From a virus, in the IMG/VR virus record IMGVR_UViG_3300049595_003053, positions 1-20,339 of that record: DNA of 20,339 nucleotides, one strand, 5' to 3'. Below, piece after piece: positions 3,222 through 20,339 of the stretch. Every line of letters begins with the position of its first letter. Position 1 is the stretch's first letter. The position numbers and the translations under genes were made by a program. A model generated the notes under the pieces. It was not told the DNA's origin. It saw only the letters and a program-made list of their open reading frames with translations, and searched no databases.

Positions 3222-3860
3222 TTATGCATCCTTCAAAGCAAGGAACTGTGGCACAGTAATTCCTGGCACCAGCGTTCCAGTGTAGTCGGTTCCTGTCGGC
3301 CCGTAAGTTACTCCAAGTAGTACAGTAGCTGGCTGCGGCCAAACTGCTGCTGCGACTCCCTGAGAAACAACAGGAACTTTACCGTTTAAGTAAAGCTTTC
3401 CAGTTGTAGGAGTAAGTACAATGTTACCTGCTGCTACCACCGCAGGAACATAGCCCTGCAAGTTTAGTTTTCCAGTGCCCGGTGTAAGCGTAACTATGCC
3501 AGTGCTGCTAACTACAGGAATCTTGCCCTGCAAATACAGCTTGCCAGTGCTGGGAGTAACTACTACATTCCCTGTCGCACTAACTACAGGCACCTTACCT
3601 TGCAAGTACAGCTTACCTGTTCCTGGCGTAAGAACAGTAATTCCGCCGCTGGTAACTACAGGCACGTAGCCTTGCAGATTTAACTTTCCTGTAGCAGGAG
3701 TTACTGTAACTGTGCCAGAGTATGCAATCGTAGGAGTCTTACCTGCCAGCAGCAGCGATCCTTTGCTGGGACTTACAAGAACTTCAGTAGCTCCGCCACC
3801 TACAATGGGCAGACTACCTAATTCTATCTGTGCTCCATCAAATAGGCGACGGCTTGCCAT
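3222..3860 (-). CDS. Beta-repeat virion protein with six exact 24-residue repeats
   Basis: 212 residues. Residues 27-170 are six tandem units of exactly 24 residues with consensus V-x-V-T-P-x-T-G-K-L-x-L-x-G-x-x-P-V-V. The S/T-P dipeptides fall at 30, 54, 78, 102, 126 and 150, with no insertion or deletion. Such strand-turn units probably stack as a beta-solenoid or fibre. The end has 'VTYGPTGTDYTGTL', a motif I recall from phage structural proteins, and 'VPQFLALKDA'. There is no signal peptide or Cys. The start has TAGGA upstream, where the TAG is the stop of the 269-aa gene. A decoration or tail-fibre protein is likely from position and composition; I do not know a named family. Confidence 0.75.
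   Translation of the reverse strand: MASRRLFDGAQIELGSLPIVGGGATEVLVSPSKGSLLLAGKTPTIAYSGTVTVTPATGKLNLQGYVPVVTSGGITVLTPGTGKLYLQGKVPVVSATGNVVVTPSTGKLYLQGKIPVVSSTGIVTLTPGTGKLNLQGYVPAVVAAGNIVLTPTTGKLYLNGKVPVVSQGVAAAVWPQPATVLLGVTYGPTGTDYTGTLVPGITVPQFLALKDA
3229..3233 (-). promoter_or_regulatory. Shine-Dalgarno that decides the start at 3220
   Basis: AAGGA on the minus strand (complement of 3229-3233) is eight bases from the ATG at 3220 and abuts the alternative ATG at 3229. The site lies inside the last codons of the upstream repeat-protein gene. Confidence 0.6.
3351..3782 (-). repeat. Six 72-bp in-frame tandem repeats
   Basis: The repeat region of the 212-aa protein is six 72-base units (432 bases) with diverged DNA but conserved blocks such as TTGCAAGTACAGCTTACC-like segments. 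Units 3 and 4 (about 3495-3638) are the most alike and unit 1 the most diverged. The unit length is constant, so the reading frame is kept. Confidence 0.85.
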
Positions 3861-3868
3861 AGCAATTC

Positions 3869-4678
3869 CTACGCTTCAGCAAGAAGAATCGCGCCAATCA
3901 AAACCTGCGAGCCTGCGGCAGCACTGCAAAAAATAGACAGGCAGGCAGCGTCTAAAACTTCATTAAACTGTCCGGCCATGCGGCCAGAAGAAACACAATC
4001 AATCACATTTGCGCCTTCAGTATCGTTGATTGCAAACATGGCTAGTGGTCTGTAAAGCACAACGCCAAAATTTCCTGCTGTTGCAGTGCTAGCAACGAGA
4101 GTTACAGATTCTACAGAACGAACTCCGGTGTCTCCTGCAGCAAGAGGAATACGAATAAGCGTACCAGCCTCCCGAAAATTAATGCCTCCAATTTGGACAG
4201 CAGTAGAAGTTTGTCCAGAAGTTCCTGCTTGGTTTGTATAAGAAACTGTAACAGTTGTGATTGTAGTTCCAATCTGCGCATGAATAATCAGCGCAACTTG
4301 AACATCTGCGCCATTAGTGTATCTGGTAAGTGCCGCAGTCGGAAGATTTGTAGTCTGAGCTGTAGTAACAGTTGCATCTAAGCCACCGCTGATGTTAAGT
4401 AAGTCAACCAACATCAGCCCAACTCCGCCAACACCAGAAGGATTGACGCGAGCACCAAGCACAGAAAGTCTGCCAGCTCCAGCGTTTGGAACTGCAGAAT
4501 TTATAGCTCTTGTAGAATCTTTGTCTAAAGCTACGCTAGTTGTAGGAGTCGCCGGAGCGGGAATAATGGGCAAAGCTCCAAATCTCGCAACACCAAAAGC
4601 AGGCGCGCTCGTTTGAAAGTCTGCAAAGTTGTTTAGAGCAAGAGCATCTAAGTATGCATCGTAAGTTGCAAAAGCCAT
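3869..4678 (-). CDS. Beta-rich virion protein, paralogue of the adjacent 282-aa protein
   Basis: 269 residues, mostly small and hydroxylated residues with predicted beta strands, no signal peptide and no membrane segment. Residues about 143-213 ('VSYTNQAGTSGQT', 'FREAGTLIRIPLAAGDTGVR', 'TAGNFGVVLYRPLA') align closely with residues 160-228 of the next upstream gene. The similarity extends outward ('ALTRYT', 'ACLS'). This is a tandem duplication of a phage structural family that I recall as hypothetical. ATG at 4678 follows TAGAGGAG, whose TAG is the stop of the paralogue. Probable surface, decoration or spike protein by position near the operon end; the exact role is unknown. Confidence 0.7.
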   Translation of the reverse strand: MAFATYDAYLDALALNNFADFQTSAPAFGVARFGALPIIPAPATPTTSVALDKDSTRAINSAVPNAGAGRLSVLGARVNPSGVGGVGLMLVDLLNISGGLDATVTTAQTTNLPTAALTRYTNGADVQVALIIHAQIGTTITTVTVSYTNQAGTSGQTSTAVQIGGINFREAGTLIRIPLAAGDTGVRSVESVTLVASTATAGNFGVVLYRPLAMFAINDTEGANVIDCVSSGRMAGQFNEVLDAACLSIFCSAAAGSQVLIGAILLAEA

Positions 4679-4691
4679 TTAACTTGCTCCT

Positions 4692-5540
4692 CTACTTTTC
4701 AATCATTGTTCCTGTCCATACAAACTCTGCTGCGGTTGTAGATGCAGGAAAATAAGCAACAGACAAACAAGCGCCAGGATCAATGGTAGGAATTCCAGGA
4801 AGTCCAGTCGTATAATCTCTCCAACCGCCGGAGCCAGCAGCGCCAACAGGAACTAATGCAAGTGGCTGTGCAATGGTAATTCCAAAGTTTCCGACAGTAC
4901 CGGTAGTAGCAGAGAGGGCAATTTTTTCAACTGCTCGAACTCCAGTATCTCCTGCAGCCAAAGGAATTCGAATTGCGCGAGTAACTTCACGAAAGCCAGT
5001 AGCACCGATATTAATTGTGGCAGTTTTTCCTGTCGTGCCTGCCTGATTTGTGTACGTCATGGTAAGAGTAACACCAGTCGTGCCGATGACCGTGTAGATC
5101 TCAACAAAAACAATGTTACCTTCTCCGCCAGTATTTCTAGTAAGGGCAGGACTTGGCGTACTTCCTTGAATTGTTTGATCTGTAGTAGCAGTTCCGCTAA
5201 GACCACCAATATGAAACAGGCGATCGTAAAGCATATATACGCCAGCGATAGTGGGAGCCACTACTGAAGAAACAAGAAATTTTTCTCTGCCGCCGCCAGG
5301 AGCAGTAAAAGGTAAAGCGCCAGTCGTAGTGTTATCTGGAATTGCTCCCGTCGTAGGAACAGCTCCGCCTGCTGGCATTCCATCATAAGTCCAAGCACTT
5401 GCCAAGCGACCAGCAATTACAGCAGTTGCAGCTACCCCAGAAACCCGAGGAACTTTAAACCAAAATTTAGTTTCTGGACTTCCGTTGTTTCCGCCGGTCA
5501 ACCGATTAATGAGATCGGAAAGATCAGTAAGCGCAGCCAT
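4692..5540 (-). CDS. Beta-rich virion protein, paralogue of the 269-aa protein
   Basis: 282 residues from the ATG at 5540. A longer frame from a TTG at 5576 exists, but the ATG has GGGAG eight bases upstream and overlaps the previous stop as TAATG, so the shorter form is chosen. The N-terminal 20 residues are helical ('ALTDLSDLINRLTGG'). Next comes a Gly/Ala/Pro-rich stretch with 'TTGAIPDNTTTGALPF' (about 63-78). The block shared with the 269-aa neighbour is 'MTYTNQAGTTGKT', 'GFREVTRAIRIPLAAGDTGV', 'GNFGITIAQPLA'. A C-terminal 'GGWRDYTTGLPGIPTIDPGACLS' region follows. I recall similar proteins as uncharacterised phage virion proteins. The N-terminal extension is not present in the paralogue and could be its particle-attachment part. 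Confidence 0.7.
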   Translation of the reverse strand: MAALTDLSDLINRLTGGNNGSPETKFWFKVPRVSGVAATAVIAGRLASAWTYDGMPAGGAVPTTGAIPDNTTTGALPFTAPGGGREKFLVSSVVAPTIAGVYMLYDRLFHIGGLSGTATTDQTIQGSTPSPALTRNTGGEGNIVFVEIYTVIGTTGVTLTMTYTNQAGTTGKTATINIGATGFREVTRAIRIPLAAGDTGVRAVEKIALSATTGTVGNFGITIAQPLALVPVGAAGSGGWRDYTTGLPGIPTIDPGACLSVAYFPASTTAAEFVWTGTMIEK

Positions 5541-11896: not shown

Positions 11897-13513
11897 TTAG
11901 CGCGCTCCACTAAGCGTAGGCCCAAACTTCTTCATCCGATCTTCCATCTGGAATCGGAAAAGAATAGAACTTACTTCTAGATCATTAGCAAGATCTATAA
12001 CAACAGGAGCCTGGCCAGGAGTAAGTTCTACGTTTGTGCGATACGTGCGCTGGCGAGGCAGGCCAAAAGCATTGTAGTCTCGCACAGCATTGTTTGCTTC
12101 GATGGCTGCTTTCATGTACATCGAGAAATCTGAAGCGGCAGTTTGCAAATCCAGTCTGCCAGAAGCGACAAGTTGAGCAGTTTGGCTAAGCAGTTGCTGC
12201 GGAGTCACATCCACAATGCCAGCTTCTTTCTGTGGGCCAAGCAGAGCAGCAAAGAGTTTGGTTTCTTTTACTGCAGCCACATCAGTAATTACGCTAAATG
12301 GAAGTGCAGCATAGATATTCGTGGCATCTCCCGGCTTAATGAGAGCTGCTTGCTGTTTGGTACTTTCAAGCGCAGCAGTATTGGTGCCAGCAAGAATTTC
12401 TTGCGGCTTGGTAGCAGTGCGACCTTGAACAGTTTGCCGAAATTGAATTTGTGCACTATTGACAAAATCAATAATCGGTTTCTTCGGATGCCCTTCAGGA
12501 AAGACTGCGCCAGCAGAATTAAGAATGGTGACTGCGCTGGCAGGATCAGGAGCAAAAGTTACAATTCCTGCAGAGTCTCTCATGACTCCAGTCTTATACC
12601 AGGTCTCAATAAGAGACTTGCCTTCTCCGCCGAGCGACATGTAGTTTTTAATTTCCGCACGAGCCATAGGAGCAAGTCCCATTGCTGCACGGCCAGTATT
12701 AACAGTGCGAGTAAACGCTTCCTGCTCTTGTGCAGTTTGCAGCTTTTCTGCCATAGCAAGTTCGACTTGCCTGCGGCTGAGAGCATTTGCTTCTCGAGAA
12801 AGTCTCAGACGCTCTGCTTCATTTTGCACGCTGTTAAGTTGCACCAGCGCAGTAAGTTGCTGGCCGTTAAGCTGCTGCAAAGTTACAAGATCCTGCATTC
12901 CTTGCCTGCGGTTAGTCTCTCGAAATGCTTGCAGGGCAATTTCAGCATTGGCAGCAGCAACTTCCAAATCTTTTTGTGCGACTTCAGCGGTAACTCCGCG
13001 CTTCAGCATTTCTTCCGTCTTAATGGTAGTCTGCGCACCCACATTTAGAGCGTTCAGGCGAGCGGTAGCATTAAGAGAAGTAGTAGCACGCACACGCGCA
13101 GCATCTTCATAGTACGGAACGGTGAAAACTGAGGCAAGCGAACGAATCGGGTCTTGAAAGAAATTAACATTTCTTTCAGCATCTGCTTTGTTGGCAAAGT
13201 CATTTGCTTCGGCAGCATTTCGACGAGCGATTTCAGCAGTCGGAACAATAAGATTGTTCGAATCTGCAATGTTTACGCCGAAAGCGCTAGCAATGGTACG
13301 AGCATTCTCAGCTTCTGCAACAGCTCCAGCATTTGTAAGTGCTTTTTGAGCAATGGCAGCAGCATCCCGAGCTTTCATAAGCTGCTCAGTATTAACTGCT
13401 TCCGTACGCCCTTTTTCGCTGGCTGCTTGCACTTGCGTAATGGTGCGAGAAAGCTGATCTTGAAAAGCTTTTTGCTCCTGCATAATGCGAGAAAGCAGAG
13501 AAGTCTCAGCCAT
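11897..13513 (-). CDS. Coiled-coil inner-virion protein (538 aa)
   Basis: 538 residues, strongly helical, rich in Ala, Gln and Glu, with coiled-coil stretches at about residues 1-60 and 160-270 ('REANALSRRQVELAMAEKLQ'). The C-terminal 300 residues look globular ('EIKNYMSLGGEGKSLIETWY', 'PEGHPKKPIIDFVNSAQIQF') and end in a basic tail. There are no Cys residues or membrane segments. TAGGA is eight bases before the ATG. It lies between small Met/Gln-rich genes and the 1733-aa gene, as T7 gp15 does before gp16. I infer a core or ejection protein that forms part of a periplasm-spanning conduit. No sequence similarity to T7 gp15 is claimed. Confidence 0.7.
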   Translation of the reverse strand: MAETSLLSRIMQEQKAFQDQLSRTITQVQAASEKGRTEAVNTEQLMKARDAAAIAQKALTNAGAVAEAENARTIASAFGVNIADSNNLIVPTAEIARRNAAEANDFANKADAERNVNFFQDPIRSLASVFTVPYYEDAARVRATTSLNATARLNALNVGAQTTIKTEEMLKRGVTAEVAQKDLEVAAANAEIALQAFRETNRRQGMQDLVTLQQLNGQQLTALVQLNSVQNEAERLRLSREANALSRRQVELAMAEKLQTAQEQEAFTRTVNTGRAAMGLAPMARAEIKNYMSLGGEGKSLIETWYKTGVMRDSAGIVTFAPDPASAVTILNSAGAVFPEGHPKKPIIDFVNSAQIQFRQTVQGRTATKPQEILAGTNTAALESTKQQAALIKPGDATNIYAALPFSVITDVAAVKETKLFAALLGPQKEAGIVDVTPQQLLSQTAQLVASGRLDLQTAASDFSMYMKAAIEANNAVRDYNAFGLPRQRTYRTNVELTPGQAPVVIDLANDLEVSSILFRFQMEDRMKKFGPTLSGAR

Positions 13514-13528
13514 TGCGATTCCTAAGGC

Positions 13529-15170: not shown

Positions 15171-15637
15171 TTTCTTGACTCAATAAATCCGTTGACGTAG
15201 GTTTTGCTCAGCATAAATGTTAAATCATCATGCCTGGGATTGCGAGTGGGGACAGCTACACAGAAACTAATATGAACCCAAGTACCTTCAAAGATCAGTT
15301 GATCGTACCAGAGTTCTTTCTTATGCTTCTGCAATTGCAAACAGATTTGGTAAGGACTGCCAAAGCTGGGACAAATAAAATCTACAGCTTCGCCAGTGAT
15401 GTGACTAGAAGTTCTGGAGCCGCCAACAGCCCGGTTGACTTCTGAAGTCCGCAACCAAGAAGAAACTAGAATTGCTCGATTGGCAAGCAACTCTCGTACA
15501 CGCTCCATGCGTCGAGCAGTTTCTAGAATGTTGTTAAGTGTGACTTTGTCTGGCGTATTATCCAAACCAAGTCGCACAGCTGCTTGAGAATGAATTGCTT
15601 CTTCGTAAGTAAAATTCGGGGTAAGACGAGTGGTCAC
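15167..15637 (-). CDS. Endolysin: M15-family zinc peptidase
   Basis: 156 residues. The core is 'SSWLRTSEVNRAVGGSRTSS' leading into 'HITGEAVDF', with zinc ligands H79 and D86 (H-x6-D) and a third ligand H122 in 'TWVHIS'. This fits the M15/PF08291 D-Ala-D-Ala carboxypeptidase-like enzymes that many phages use as endolysins to cut peptide cross-links in peptidoglycan. A catalytic acid is likely D112 or E117 in 'YDQLIFEGTW'. The N-terminal 'NFTYEEAIHS' is a typical start for this group. There is no signal peptide, so it needs the holin. The start is GTG at 15637, overlapping the previous stop as GTGA. GTG plus coupling may limit expression of a lysis enzyme. Confidence 0.9.
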   Translation of the reverse strand: MTTRLTPNFTYEEAIHSQAAVRLGLDNTPDKVTLNNILETARRMERVRELLANRAILVSSWLRTSEVNRAVGGSRTSSHITGEAVDFICPSFGSPYQICLQLQKHKKELWYDQLIFEGTWVHISFCVAVPTRNPRHDDLTFMLSKTYVNGFIESRK

Positions 15638-16131
15638 GATACTTTCTCCAGGCGCATGATGGAACCCTTTGCTTCAGTGGCTCCGTTTAGGGCAATTGCA
15701 GAAATGGTCATGGTGTAAGTACCAGGACTTGTTACATTCAAGGTAGCTACGGCAATGTCAGACGCATGAATCAAATAGCTGTGACCAGAAGCTCCACCAC
15801 GATCCCAGTTTAGTGTCGTAGTGACAGTTACTCCGCTGATGCTGGCATCTTGTGTAGCATTGATTGCTCCTGCAGCAAGAAAGAGATAGGTTGCACGAGT
15901 ATCAAGAGAGACTTCCCAAGCACCGGCCGTAAGATACACATCTCGAGTTGCAGCAGTACCATCGCTTTTGGTGAGGGTGTACGAAGTTCTAGCTTCAGAA
16001 CTCTGAGCTGACGCAAGTTCAGTAATTGCTCGATGAATGGGAGTAAGTGTTTTTATGAGTTCCGGATCCTGAGTTACAGGATTCAGTGGAAGTAGTTTTA
16101 CCGCATCTGATGTATAGCTATAGTCTGCCAT
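15634..16131 (-). CDS. Beta-rich virion protein upstream of the lysis cassette
   Basis: 165 residues. The N-terminal 45 are helical ('MADYSYTSDAVKLLPLNPVT', 'LIKTLTPIHRAITELASAQS'). The remaining 120 residues are beta-rich and Thr/Ala-rich ('LTAGAWEVSLDTRATYLFLA', 'TLNVTSPGTYTMTISAIAL'), like a jelly-roll or Ig-like domain. AGGA precedes the ATG by eight bases. The gene overlaps the nozzle-like gene by 14 bases upstream and the endolysin by 4 bases downstream. I do not recognise a family; a tail-associated protein is plausible, with the helical part anchoring and the beta part outward. Confidence 0.65.
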   Translation of the reverse strand: MADYSYTSDAVKLLPLNPVTQDPELIKTLTPIHRAITELASAQSSEARTSYTLTKSDGTAATRDVYLTAGAWEVSLDTRATYLFLAAGAINATQDASISGVTVTTTLNWDRGGASGHSYLIHASDIAVATLNVTSPGTYTMTISAIALNGATEAKGSIMRLEKVS

Positions 16132-17773
16132 GCTGGTATCCTGTAAGAAGTACGGTGTTTACGTCAAACTCTCCACTCAAAACAATCGAATGGTTTTCTC
16201 CTACAATGTCACAAGGAAACTTTTTTAGCTGCCCATCGTAGTTGATATTCGACTCCAAATCTTCCGTGGGCCCAAGAGAGGATGTAATAGTCTTTCCGTC
16301 CAAACTAGTAAGAATGGTGCAAAGTGTGGTATGAGGTGCCAGATTCTCTAGCTGCACTTCCTGCAAAGAACTCTTGCGCGTACGAGAGAATTGATACTTA
16401 CCAAGAACCAGGTAGGCTTCTGGAGTATCTCCCTGATCGCAAGTACGCATAACATCTACGCTGCCGTCATAAGTCAAAAACGCTAAATTGTTATCATACG
16501 GCAAATCGTAAAAGTTGCTCGCAGCAAGCGTAGCAATTGCATTGTGTCCAACTTTTATAAGAGTCCAACGCTTTAGAATGGAGTCGAACAAGAAGCAATA
16601 GCTGTATTTGTTTCTTGCAGAAATTGTAGGAGGTCCACTTTCTACACCTTCTGTGTAAGTCCAAAGCGCATTTGGAATTGATATTGCCACATAGCGCTTA
16701 CCTACAGCAGAAACAGCCACAGATAGCAGGGTGTTTGCAGAAAAATCATATAGACTGAATTTTTTAGTTGTGGAATTATATACATAGAATTTCTTTCTAC
16801 GTATGACCTCTCCGAGTTCCGCTAGTGCTCCCTGCGCTACGTTATCAGAAATTTTTGTAATTCCTGCATCAGTCCAAGAAAATTGAGTATCAACAGAATT
16901 GTCACGAGTCACATGTTCGTAACTAATGATACCAGAAGAATTATAAATTTCTCTAAAGCTCCAAGGCGCCGCAAGATTTCCTGTGTATTCTGCGGCAATT
17001 ACATTGTCTTCGCAGTAAACAATAAACCCATACAGCGTGGGTACGCAGTGAGTAATTCTTCCGCGAGCATCCTGAATTTGAGTATTTCCTGCGCCAGTAA
17101 TGAGGCTAGGAGCAAAGTCAAGAGGATTAGTGAGAGAACTCCAAGCAACTAGATTTTGCTGATTTGACCAGACTAGAAGTCTTCCACGACTAGCAAAAAT
17201 GCCGTCAATCTGAGAAGTTCCTGCAATCGTTGGCAATCCAGTAAGCTGTCGAGCAATAAAACTAGGAATAGATCCGCCGTACGCTAGTTCAAAGAAATGT
17301 GTGCTGGCAGGAAACGACGTGGGAAAAGTAACAAAGACTCTGCCGTTTACAGTAGCAGATGTCATCGTTGCAGAAAAAGTGTCTTTTGCACTTAAAGTTC
17401 CTGTAGCTGTAAAAATCCACGTATTGGAACCAAAATTATAAATAGCAAACTCATTTACATTCGTAGTAAGATTTGCTACTGCGTATACATACTGACTGCT
17501 GCGAAAGTACGTTGGAAAAGAAATCCGCTGCCAGTCAAAGATGTACCGATTAGTTCCCCCAGGAATTGAAGGAATGATTTCAAACAAACCTACACTCTTA
17601 TACCCGAATTCTGTAGGAATAGCATTCTGCACGTAGTAAACCTGAGGAATTCCAGGATTTCCTTCGCTTGCATACTGGTCTTGGCCAGAAGCAATGACAG
17701 TCCGACCAAAGTTGCCGGAGTCAAAAGGAAAAAGCGAGCTTGTAAGATTTGCTCGATACCGAATCTGTCCCAT
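16118..17773 (-). CDS. Tail nozzle-like protein (551 aa)
   Basis: 551 residues. The start 'SSLFPFDSGNFGRTVIASGQ' and 'GIPQVYYVQNAIPTEFGYKS' lead into repeated strands. The central part 'IFASRGRLLVWSNQQNLVAW' then 'SSLTNPLDFAPSLITGAGNT' (about 192-231) and 'YGFIVYCEDNVIAAEYTGNL' (about 248-267) resembles the beta-propeller of podovirus tail nozzle proteins such as T7 gp12 and relatives, in which a strand 'R-L-x-x-W-S' precedes 'W-S-x-x-x-x-P-x-D-F'. These form the distal part of the short tail. The similarity is recalled from phage annotation and is only moderate. The gene sits between adaptor/spike genes and the ejection genes, the usual place. Its ribosome site is weak (GGGTGA). Confidence 0.65.
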   Translation of the reverse strand: MGQIRYRANLTSSLFPFDSGNFGRTVIASGQDQYASEGNPGIPQVYYVQNAIPTEFGYKSVGLFEIIPSIPGGTNRYIFDWQRISFPTYFRSSQYVYAVANLTTNVNEFAIYNFGSNTWIFTATGTLSAKDTFSATMTSATVNGRVFVTFPTSFPASTHFFELAYGGSIPSFIARQLTGLPTIAGTSQIDGIFASRGRLLVWSNQQNLVAWSSLTNPLDFAPSLITGAGNTQIQDARGRITHCVPTLYGFIVYCEDNVIAAEYTGNLAAPWSFREIYNSSGIISYEHVTRDNSVDTQFSWTDAGITKISDNVAQGALAELGEVIRRKKFYVYNSTTKKFSLYDFSANTLLSVAVSAVGKRYVAISIPNALWTYTEGVESGPPTISARNKYSYCFLFDSILKRWTLIKVGHNAIATLAASNFYDLPYDNNLAFLTYDGSVDVMRTCDQGDTPEAYLVLGKYQFSRTRKSSLQEVQLENLAPHTTLCTILTSLDGKTITSSLGPTEDLESNINYDGQLKKFPCDIVGENHSIVLSGEFDVNTVLLTGYQHGRL

Positions 17774-17776
17774 AAA

Positions 17777-17998
17777 TCACCCGTTCTTTGGACGCACAGG
17801 AAGCCACTCTTGTTTACCGTCTTTTACAAACAGCTGCACAAATCTGCCAGATGCAGGATCTATCCAATGATCTCCGTGCTTGGCATTGGTAGGAAGTTCT
17901 GCTTGTACAAACACTTTTCTCTCCACAGGAATTGGAGAAGTGGCTTTCCAAGCATTGCCTGCAAGCACACGTACATTTGGCAGAGGTTTAGTGGCCAT
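17777..17998 (-). CDS. 73-aa hypothetical virion-associated protein
   Basis: 73 residues. The N-terminus 'MATKPLPNVRVLAGNAWKAT' is followed by 'GDHWIDPASGRFVQLFVKDG' and ends 'EWLPVRPKNG'. The G-D-x-W-I-D ... G-x-W-x-x-V pattern recurs as a short module in phage tail fibres and collar proteins. Its function is not known to me. No strong Shine-Dalgarno is visible upstream of the ATG (only AAGAAAG), so initiation may depend on coupling to the 333-aa gene 15 bases upstream. Three bases separate its stop from the nozzle-like gene. Confidence 0.6.
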   Translation of the reverse strand: MATKPLPNVRVLAGNAWKATSPIPVERKVFVQAELPTNAKHGDHWIDPASGRFVQLFVKDGKQEWLPVRPKNG

Positions 17999-18013
17999 GA
18001 TAGAATTACTTTC

Positions 18014-19015
18014 TTATATGGTAAAGTTAACCATCCAAGGATGACCAAAGCCAACGTTTACGGTAGTGTTGTTTCCTTGCTCGGCAGCATTAAATTGCCT
18101 TGCAACAGTTGTCGGCCCAGCTATATTGTAAGGCTGAAACTGTGCAATAGTGGCAGGCCCAACTGCAATTTGGCGTAATTTAAGAACAAATCCCTCTCCC
18201 TTTGTAGTTCCAATCAAAGGAACAGGCAAAAACCAAGCTTTACTTATACTTGTATTTGTTAGCACGTCTGTAGAAGTTACAGCAGAGTGCGCCCATCCGC
18301 CAGGCCCGTAAGCGTGAAAGTACGAACGATTGACAGATTGGTAATTTGTTTTAATTACTCCAATTTGCGCACCAGAAGCTACTCCAGTGGGCGCGAAAGG
18401 AAAAGGAATTGTATTAGAAAAATTTACAGCAGTTCCGCTAGTGCCAGGGCCATAAGTTCCTCCATAGGCATTATCGGCTGCGTCTACAAGAATGTTTCCA
18501 GCACCACAAAAATACTGTGGGCGCGCGCTTTGAGCTAAATTAATAGTGCCAAAGAAAATTGATTCTGCAGTTTCAAAATAAAAGCACCTTGCGCCAGACA
18601 CATAGATGGAACTAATTACGCTAAAAGGAGCGCACTTTACTGCGGCTGTATCGTCTCCAAGAATTACTCCAGAACTTGCATCAATATTACTTGCAGTGTC
18701 TGCAGTAGCGTTTGGAAACCAGGCAATATACCCATTATTTGCTAACGGCGTAGTATCAAAAATTGTAGGATTTGCTGCTGCTGGAGCACTGCCAAACCAT
18801 ATCATTAAAATTCTGCCAGCAGCTCCACTCTTTCTTTTCAGTACTAACCAAAGAGTTTGTCCAGACACATTTTTTCCTGCTACTTGCCAATAGCTAGCAG
18901 GATTGGAAAAATTTGTATTAAACAACGCTTCGTAGTCATTTATCAATCCTGCAGCATTAGCGGCAGATTGAGAAGCAGAAATTCCGCTGCAAAACCAGGT
19001 AAGAACGGCAGCCAT
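18014..19015 (-). CDS. 333-aa virion protein, unknown family
   Basis: 333 residues, Ala/Gly/Thr/Ser-rich and beta-rich, with an N-terminal helix 'SASQSAANAAGLINDYEALF', then aromatic strands 'ASYWQVAGKNVSGQTLWLVL' and a middle 'ARCFYFETAESIFFGTINLA'. The C-terminal part 'GKAW-FLPVPLIG'-like strands and 'FGHPWMVNFTI' end the protein. AGGA precedes the ATG. It is encoded between the small Pro/Asp protein and the 73-aa protein, in the host-contact part of the late operon. Possibly a tail or head-surface protein; I do not recognise it. Six or so Cys residues are spread through it, unusual among the neighbours. Confidence 0.6.
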   Translation of the reverse strand: MAAVLTWFCSGISASQSAANAAGLINDYEALFNTNFSNPASYWQVAGKNVSGQTLWLVLKRKSGAAGRILMIWFGSAPAAANPTIFDTTPLANNGYIAWFPNATADTASNIDASSGVILGDDTAAVKCAPFSVISSIYVSGARCFYFETAESIFFGTINLAQSARPQYFCGAGNILVDAADNAYGGTYGPGTSGTAVNFSNTIPFPFAPTGVASGAQIGVIKTNYQSVNRSYFHAYGPGGWAHSAVTSTDVLTNTSISKAWFLPVPLIGTTKGEGFVLKLRQIAVGPATIAQFQPYNIAGPTTVARQFNAAEQGNNTTVNVGFGHPWMVNFTI

Positions 19016-19025
19016 TTAGAGTCCT

Positions 19026-19241
19026 TTAAACATACGTTATTTGATACCAAGCCGGAAAGTCTGCGGCTCCTAGCACTGGGCGCGGAAGTTCTTCTGCAAA
19101 CTCGTTATAATTTAAACCCCTGAAAGTAGTGCAAGTTTGTTTTATTGCTGTAGGATCCACTGGATCTATTGGATCTACTGGATCAGGAGGATCTATTGGA
19201 AACGGGTTAACTAATCCAGGCGCCCAGACATTGGTATACAT
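19026..19241 (-). CDS. 71-aa protein with Pro/Asp repeat linker and spike-like N-terminus
   Basis: 71 residues. The start MYTNVWAPGL resembles the first residues of the neighbouring tailspike (MTYTNIWESGI). A linker with P-(I/V)-D-P repeats follows (residues about 16-30, from 9-bp DNA repeats). The last 40 residues ('TTFRGLNYNEFAEELPRPVL', 'FPAWYQITYV') have no recognisable domain. The start leader TAGGACTCGCC is identical to that of the tailspike gene. It may be a short adaptor or anchoring peptide that shares an attachment point with the tailspike, or a degenerate spike left after a domain loss. Both readings are inference. Confidence 0.6.
   Translation of the reverse strand: MYTNVWAPGLVNPFPIDPPDPVDPIDPVDPTAIKQTCTTFRGLNYNEFAEELPRPVLGAADFPAWYQITYV
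19153..19197 (-). repeat. 9-bp tandem microrepeat encoding (P-I/V-D)n
   Basis: Five consecutive 9-base units starting GGATC (GGATCCACT, GGATCTATT, GGATCTACT, GGATCAGGA, GGATCTATT) lie in the 71-aa gene. Read on the minus strand they encode the Pro/Asp linker. The fourth unit is diverged. Nine is a multiple of three, so gain or loss of units by slippage would keep the frame. Confidence 0.85.
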
Positions 19242-19252
19242 GGCGAGTCCTA
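19242..19252 (-). promoter_or_regulatory. Fused stop codon/Shine-Dalgarno before the 71-aa gene
   Basis: On the minus strand TAGGACTCGCC directly precedes ATG. TAG ends the tailspike gene and is part of AGGA. The same 14-base string including ATG is present before the tailspike gene at 20153-20166. Confidence 0.75.
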
Positions 19253-20155
19253 AGCCACAAAGCTGTTTCTGTTAACGACTGTTCCGCTGAACACCGAGGC
19301 CGGTGCGTCGCTGTTGCTGATGTAAACGGCAGTTCCGGCCTCGTTGAAGATCGAAACGCCACTCGCTGCGTTTTGCGGGCCTGCCATGTCGCACTGCCGT
19401 ACTTCCACGCTGGGCGTTCCGGTTACGCCAAAACGCTCCAGACGAATGCCGGTGTTCCAAGTCGCAGAGCCGCGAATCGTAGACCGCTTGATACGAACAT
19501 CCTGCACTCCGCGCAGCAAGAAAGAGCCGCCGAAGTTTGTCAGATTGTACGCATCAAAGAAAACGTCATTGATGTTCGCGTCAACAAACCGCGCCGCGCC
19601 GCTGGTGTTTTCAAGAAGCACCGCGTAATCGTTTAGCGCTCTGTAGTCAATGATGCAATGCTCGATAAACAAGATTCTCCAAGTAGCGCCAGATTGCTTT
19701 AAGAACTTTTGCCTTGAAACATCGCCGACATTCCTAAGCATGTCCACATTTCTTACATGCACCGCATTTGCGTTATTGCCGTCAAACGCATACAAACTGG
19801 CGTTCGGGCTTCCCTCTACCAAAAAATCCTCGAAAAACGTGTCCTCAGAACATTTGAATAGGTCAGTCGAATCATTCTGGAATTGAACGAGTCCCTTTGA
19901 CAGCCCTTTGATTCCAACAAACTGCGGAACCGTGATAACGCTAGAAGTAACGTATTTCCCCGGCCACACATAAACTATCGACCGCCTGTTTACAGACGGC
20001 GGATCTTTATCATTTATCGCATCAACCGCAGCTTGCACACTTGGAAACATGCCAGAAAGAAGTCCAACATGGTAAATATTTGAGGTGTCCTTATCTACAG
20101 GATAGATAGGAGGAATTGCAGGTATGCCAGATTCCCAAATATTAGTGTAGGTCAT
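19250..20155 (-). CDS. Tailspike with pectate-lyase-like beta-helix
   Basis: 301 residues. The N-terminus 'MTYTNIWESGIPAIPPIYPV' is shared in part with the 71-aa neighbour and is probably the attachment peptide. Residues about 27-100 ('GLLSGMFPSVQAAVDAINDK', 'SIVYVWPGKYVTSSVITVPQ', 'FVGIKG') have the start pattern of Pectate_lyase_3-type right-handed beta-helices, with a leading helix, 'Y-V-x-P-G-x-Y' and turn glycines. The rest shows repeated short strands with N/D/G turns ending '...VVNRNSFVA'. Tailspikes bind and often cut host polysaccharides, but no catalytic residues can be named here. DNA of the 3' part (19250-19650) is much GC-richer than the 5' end, a sign of domain swapping. Confidence 0.72.
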   Translation of the reverse strand: MTYTNIWESGIPAIPPIYPVDKDTSNIYHVGLLSGMFPSVQAAVDAINDKDPPSVNRRSIVYVWPGKYVTSSVITVPQFVGIKGLSKGLVQFQNDSTDLFKCSEDTFFEDFLVEGSPNASLYAFDGNNANAVHVRNVDMLRNVGDVSRQKFLKQSGATWRILFIEHCIIDYRALNDYAVLLENTSGAARFVDANINDVFFDAYNLTNFGGSFLLRGVQDVRIKRSTIRGSATWNTGIRLERFGVTGTPSVEVRQCDMAGPQNAASGVSIFNEAGTAVYISNSDAPASVFSGTVVNRNSFVA

Positions 20156-20166
20156 GGCGAGTCCTA
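20156..20166 (-). promoter_or_regulatory. Fused stop codon/Shine-Dalgarno before the tailspike gene
   Basis: TAGGACTCGCC on the minus strand precedes the tailspike ATG. TAG is the stop of the adaptor-like gene. It is identical to the leader before the 71-aa gene. Confidence 0.75.
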
Positions 20167-20339
20167 GTAAGCTCCAAAATCTGCGTTACCTACAATGCGA
20201 ATTTGCTGCAGCCATTCTTTGCTTTCATTTTCCATTCGCACGTATTCTTCGTCTTTGCCAATGCCTTTGTAAATAGCGCGAGAAGCTTCGTGAATGATGG
20301 CGTAAGGAAGCTCTGCAGCAATCCAGGAATCCCAGCCAT
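20164..20339 (-). CDS. C-terminal end of a putative head-tail adaptor protein (5' cut by window edge)
   Basis: Only the last 57 residues are visible, ending TAG 20164-20166. The fragment begins 'GWDSWIAAELPYAIIHEASR', continues 'AIYKGIGKDEEYVRMENESK' and ends 'EWLQQIRIVGNADFGAY'. It is a helical hairpin with conserved-looking Pro-Tyr, as in the C-terminus of phage adaptor proteins (gp11/T7-tail-tubular-A-like), where a helix 'P-x-x-x-x-x-A-x-x' with a variable D-x-E-x-A linker leads to a last helix. That call rests on general pattern and gene order (before spike and nozzle genes) and is tentative. The start lies beyond the right edge. Confidence 0.5.
   Translation of the reverse strand, partial: GWDSWIAAELPYAIIHEASRAIYKGIGKDEEYVRMENESKEWLQQIRIVGNADFGAY

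Follow-up and report, generated by a model that had tools for sequence, protein, structure and literature searches.

Two adjacent genes in a phage tail block, one encoding a 301-aa tailspike-like protein and the other a protein of only 71 aa, begin with an identical 14-base leader and a common N-terminal motif, which raises the question of whether they share a docking element to which different bodies can be attached. An initial annotation had answered with a duplicated promoter-proximal anchor segment, placed on two host-contact genes and possibly serving as a plug-in scheme for swapping receptor-binding parts. The locus lies in a viral contig of 20,339 bases, the whole of which is referred to here as the window, with the tail genes on the minus strand. 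In order, these encode an adaptor-like protein (incomplete, at the contig end), the spike, proteins of 71, 333 and 73 aa, and a 551-aa nozzle-like protein, after which come a 165-aa protein, an M15-peptidase-type endolysin and further genes onward to a 1733-aa protein that is probably internal. These genes make up the tail block of a phage that is short-tailed and uncultured. The upstream genes missing from it are provided by a near-identical contig, L002, and the portal, major capsid protein and terminase by L007, from the same kind of phage. The features discussed below are collected in Table 1.

Table 1. Positions in the window of the leader copies, the two motif-bearing genes and their neighbors
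Feature	Positions	Strand	Description
Adaptor-like protein, C-terminal part	20164..20339	-	putative docking partner; 197 aa full-length in L002
Leader copy 1, TAGGACTCGCCATG	20153..20166	-	adaptor-like stop codon, AGGA and spike start codon
301-aa tailspike-like protein	19250..20155	-	directly after adaptor-like gene, as in L008 and L081
Spike residues 1-26, MTYTNIWESGIPAIPPIYPVDKDTSN	20078..20155	-	putative tail-docking peptide and Pro-rich linker
Exchanged spike body, residues about 50-284	19304..20008	-	core 95% identical in DNA to L001
Leader copy 2, TAGGACTCGCCATG	19239..19252	-	spike stop codon, AGGA and 71-aa start codon
71-aa protein	19026..19241	-	YTNVWAPG peptide, Pro/Asp repeat linker, 41-residue tail
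333-aa gene, leader AAAGGACTCTAAATG	18014..19015	-	directly after 71-aa gene
Nozzle-like virion protein, phrog_3287 / phrog_16563	16118..17773	-	alternative docking partner
Near copy of leader, TAGGAATCGCAATG	13511..13524	-	start of unrelated 538-aa gene; 9/11 leader bases
Near copy of leader, TAGGAATTGCTATG	3858..3871	-	start of unrelated 212-aa gene; 8/11 leader bases

As first described, the spike and 71-aa genes, both on the minus strand, each start with an exact copy of the leader TAGGACTCGCCATG, which is found nowhere else in the record. In both copies, TAG is the stop codon of the preceding gene and AGGA is the Shine-Dalgarno core, followed by six bases and then ATG. Two further genes have the same TAGGA-N6-ATG arrangement in the window, their spacers being ATCGCA and ATTGCT, and similar starts occur in a related contig, L081. 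Since the leader is built from a stop codon and a ribosome site, and since near copies of it stand at two unrelated genes, it is weak evidence when taken alone; the initial annotation had named an occurrence before many unrelated genes as a point against its own proposal, and these near copies bear that out halfway. The identity that goes beyond the common construction is a real but modest coincidence, the chance of one pair matching at all six spacer bases among four TAGGA-N6-ATG starts being about 0.0015. As for a promoter, the leader yielded one weak site, compared with 1.5 expected in shuffled sequences, and hence none beyond chance. For leader TAGGACTCGCCATG, "translation-start arrangement" is a more fitting description than "promoter-proximal element".

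The products of the two genes resemble each other precisely where the leader ends. The spike starts MTYTNIWESGIPAIPPIYPVD and the 71-aa protein MYTNVWAPGLVNPFPIDPPD, and both display the motif (T)YTN[IV]WxxG followed by a Pro-rich stretch, just as originally noted. These N termini form the top-scoring of 325 gene pairs in the window (score 46, with the runner-up at 32), and that score is unmatched by any of 482 N termini from other phage loci, whichever of the two they are compared with. It could still be argued that the two genes are unrelated and have no common origin, the leader being a habitual overlap of stop codon and ribosome site and YTN[IV]W a product of convergence or chance. Such a view is consistent with the 9/11 and 8/11 leader matches at two other genes, with the 11 other exact 14-base same-strand repeats that the window contains, and with the alignment of the YTN[IV] codons, in which three of the four synonymous third positions differ between the two genes. 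We nevertheless consider it unlikely, because it has to accommodate the identity of six spacer bases, a pair of N termini ranking above every other pair and the whole background, and the coincidence of leader and motif at adjacent genes. Since the spacer match and the best N-terminal pair occur together, leader and motif in combination are beyond chance. The divergence of synonymous positions makes a recent duplication improbable, and a recent segmental duplication of leader plus anchor was rejected on this ground and because unrelated genes have similar leaders. The duplication of a promoter-proximal segment that had been postulated is therefore not supported; the motif common to the spike and the 71-aa protein was not copied recently but goes back to an old relationship or to functional convergence.

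Behind the motif, the spike carries a body that has been exchanged. Among the 2.9 million viral contigs searched, its sole full-length relative is in L001, an unrelated phage with a GC content of 0.58, a phrog_578 connector gene just upstream of the spike and a neighborhood unlike that of the window. Nothing in the first about 73 residues of the L001 spike corresponds to the first 26 or so of the window spike. Similarity is distant over residues 27-50, and over residues 67-276 the two genes are identical at 601 of 630 DNA bases. The same spike core is thus found on different N-terminal parts and in different neighborhoods. Moreover, GC3 is 0.32 in spike residues 1-41, like that of the other tail genes in the window, and 0.58 in residues 42-301, which is also the value for the L001 spike. 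Swapping of spike bodies between phages is a known evolutionary route, and the simplest reading is that a spike gene already resident in this phage recently received its body from a lineage rich in GC and kept its native N terminus, perhaps also its native C terminus, codon use pointing to this direction of transfer. The last 15 residues of the spike (19250-19306, minus strand) differ from those of L001, after 230 residues that are nearly identical, which may mean that two crossovers inside the gene brought in the body and left the native sequence at either end. For the spike, the plug-in scheme put forward in the initial annotation holds, as attested by the body exchange with L001 and the break in GC3. 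The spike matches a pectate-lyase/beta-helix domain (PF12708, E 0.003) below the Pfam gathering score, and the structure model of the spike (mean pLDDT 29) has too low a confidence to interpret. A prophage search with the spike and adaptor-like proteins returned no match in bacterial genomes.

The location of the breakpoints also bears on the role of the leader copies, which flank the spike gene exactly. Together with the presence of other spikes at this place in L008 and L081, this might suggest that the 14-base copies are recombination sites bounding a cassette, the whole gene being inserted or lost between them. However, the exchanged block runs from near residue 50 to near residue 284, so its boundaries both lie within the gene, at a distance from either copy; in addition, codon use at the N-terminal end of the spike is native, and the leader is not present in L001. 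A cassette delimited by the leader copies is, in our estimation, highly improbable.

The position occupied by the spike is informative in related phages. The adaptor-like proteins of L008 and L081 are 56% and 46% identical, respectively, to that of the window, and in the same place of the tail operon these phages encode spikes of 441 aa (L008) and 581 aa (L081) with different bodies, a nozzle-like gene following directly. The L008 spike starts MTTVWGAVVPGAP (MTTVWGAVVPG), and its N terminus aligns with that of the window spike with a significant score (p about 0.01 or less). The L081 spike starts MSASVWNPNPQ, its likeness to the window spike being confined to V-W, with an alignment score that is not significant. 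A permissive W-peptide filter, written after the sequences had been seen, was run on the window together with ten related loci (490 candidate starts). It picked out both window genes, the spikes of L008 and L081, a fiber in L028 and one spurious case consisting of two nested ATGs of a single L007 gene. In L002, the leader and the first 22 residues of the spike are identical to those of the window. That contig stops at spike residue 23 (L002 positions 4965-5031), which is the end of the shared peptide, and since it ends there, strains in the sample may carry different bodies beyond the peptide.

Motif scans brought in two further genes, nozzle-adjacent fibers that start MAYTNVWNEAFPA and MAYTRSWNDATPA, both of the YTxxW type (N termini MAYTNVWNEAFPADT in L028 and MAYTRSWNDATPAGT in L082/L083). 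Because these fibers came from the scans, their likeness to the motif is circular, and only their position is independent evidence: the L028 and L082 fibers lie directly upstream of nozzle-like genes that belong, as in the window, to phrog_3287. Their bodies differ from each other and from that of the window spike. A related N terminus is found in the same nozzle-adjacent place in Aeromonas phage P5 (P5_0014). The class formed by the fibers of L028, L082 and P5 is defined by the pattern YTxxWNxxxPxG followed by a helix-like AANQID..R..ER segment; the window genes have only YTNxW and the following prolines in common with them and lack the AANQID..R..ER segment. A strict motif scan of viral contigs returned mostly non-tail proteins (such as an 827-aa protein with MFYTNVW) or very short frames, and an MGYTHYWN family that emerged from the second scan was discarded since it sits among non-tail genes. 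The initial annotation had made its proposal depend on the motif occurring with differing bodies in other phages, and such cases do exist, in the L008 and L081 spikes and in the two nozzle-adjacent fibers.

Elsewhere in the window, the 165-aa gene that follows the nozzle-like gene (15634-16131, minus strand) has its first about 40 residues in common with an 84-aa gene at the same place in L008 (11528-11782), the remainder differing by eye, and it looks, again by eye, like a second gene of the tail block with a conserved N terminus and a variable body. A proposed assignment of the L001 N terminus to the same class as the N terminus of this gene received no support from the scores. Two adjacent genes (3869-4678 and 4692-5536, both on the minus strand) resemble paralogues by eye, with common stretches such as IRIPLAAGDTGVR; their third-position GC is 0.30 and 0.55, which suggests that one of the pair came from outside. 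A 58-aa open reading frame at 2039-2215 on the plus strand has a third-position GC of 0.68 in an AT-richer genome and was possibly acquired.

As for where the peptide would attach, the N terminus of the spike is most likely a short tail-docking peptide, and better-known tails offer precedents. In phage SU10, adaptor and nozzle each dock one class of fiber through the N-terminal parts of the fibers, and the short fiber does so through aromatic and hydrophobic side chains (PMC9509320). The protein encoded upstream of the spike weakly matches SU10_adaptor over its full length, at E 0.084, which is below the cut-off, and its designation as adaptor-like is based on gene order and this subthreshold match; no sequence relation to the SU10 docking residues has been established. 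Its structure model (mean pLDDT 41) is not interpretable, and Foldseek with this low-confidence model returned nothing usable. Through the short hydrophobic peptide (T)YTN[IV]WxxG and its Pro-rich linker, the spike and the 71-aa protein would each plug into one kind of tail site, on the adaptor, which is encoded upstream in the operon, or on the nozzle. The spike would then consist of this peptide with an interchangeable beta-helix-type body behind it, the present body having been imported by recombination within the gene, while the 71-aa protein would have retained leader and peptide with almost no body. The identical leader would be one of the overlaps between stop codon and ribosome site that this phage also uses at other genes, kept or copied at both starts. 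As a whole, this reading, in which a docking peptide is common to both proteins, the spike body can be exchanged and the second protein has the peptide but almost no body, is in our judgment moderately probable. In its conserved N-terminal part and exchanged C-terminal body, evident from the comparison with L001, the spike resembles the modular tailspikes of T7/K1F and of many Klebsiella phages. Unlike in those, the conserved part comprises only about 26-50 residues and has no match to a Pfam anchor domain.

The 71-aa protein is the less certain member of the pair. Its linker is encoded by a 9-base tandem repeat (19152-19200), and the GC3 of its gene, 0.29, is native. No family match was found in Pfam, PHROGs or NCBIfam, and no meaningful match among GenBank phages. 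Only two contigs, L005 and L006, gave a match at all. The first was dismissed as a relative, the match passing through Asp-Pro repeats of an unrelated protein, and the second falls in the same repeat region; the tail of the 71-aa protein is without relatives. Since the protein has neither a body nor a family match nor a relative, a host-contact role, as envisaged in the initial annotation, is unsupported, and the plug-in scheme is shown for the spike only. Most probably, the 71-aa protein is either what remains of a second receptor-binding protein, an origin by truncation being what we infer in that case, or a small accessory protein of the tail.

Precedents for both a shared mode of docking and a truncated partner exist. 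In K1-5/SP6, a K5 lyase and a K1 endosialidase are docked via short N-terminal hepta- and undecapeptides (PMC6872550). The window is similar in that two tail genes per phage carry a short peptide at the N terminus instead of a large anchor domain, with bodies that are independent of the peptide. The two peptides of K1-5/SP6, however, are not alike, and their binding partner is a separate adapter that has a T4gp10-like domain, whereas in the window one peptide is found in both genes, no T4gp10-like domain was found and only one of the genes has a body. Klebsiella phages have conserved docking peptides and also truncated receptor-binding proteins of 69 aa, which keeps the peptide, and 61 aa (PMC6872550). 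Like the KP32-virus group C phages KpV767 and KP-Rio/2015 (69 or 61 aa), the window has a tiny gene beside an intact spike, and as in KpV767 this gene has the conserved, putative docking peptide (YTNVWAPG in the 71-aa protein); by size and make-up, the 71-aa protein would fit the truncated receptor-binding type. In KP32 viruses, the peptide docks on a T4gp10-like domain of a first receptor-binding protein, which has a long anchor of its own, whereas in the window one and the same peptide opens the spike and the 71-aa protein. A T4gp10-like docking domain is absent from the 301-aa spike by Pfam, PHROGs and NCBIfam, a test on sequence only, and the system is therefore not assigned to the KP32-type anchor-branch arrangement.

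The truncated receptor-binding proteins have been proposed to be remaining docking sites for acquiring new bodies (PMC6872550). By extension, the phage might be maintaining the 71-aa gene, which has its own translation signal and the peptide in common with the spike, as a docking stub almost devoid of a body, a reserve site to which recombination could join a new body, as happened in the adjacent spike; this we regard as quite doubtful. A somewhat better, though still minor, chance belongs to the alternative that the 71-aa protein is functional as it stands, a small tail protein docked by its W-peptide and acting as connector or plug for another virion protein, perhaps the 333-aa product, in which case the spike and a two-part fiber would use one type of docking site. 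The intact reading frame, ribosome site and native codon use are consistent with this, as is the partly similar start leader of the 333-aa gene (AGGACTC). The 71-, 333- and 73-aa genes form a block between spike and nozzle (17777-19241, minus strand) that L008 and L081 lack as a block, the spike adjoining the nozzle there. Against this alternative, neither the 71-aa nor the 333-aa protein has relatives or a family match in the searches made.

The spike is a clean natural example of a body moved between unrelated phages with different N termini, far from the well-studied enterobacterial ones, and the junction of the moved body is visible in both identity and codon use. The 71-aa gene would extend the pattern of truncated receptor-binding proteins only if its product is in the virion. 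If YTN[IV]W is a docking element, it would offer a sequence handle for receptor-binding genes in uncultured podoviruses, the bodies of which are too variable to provide one.
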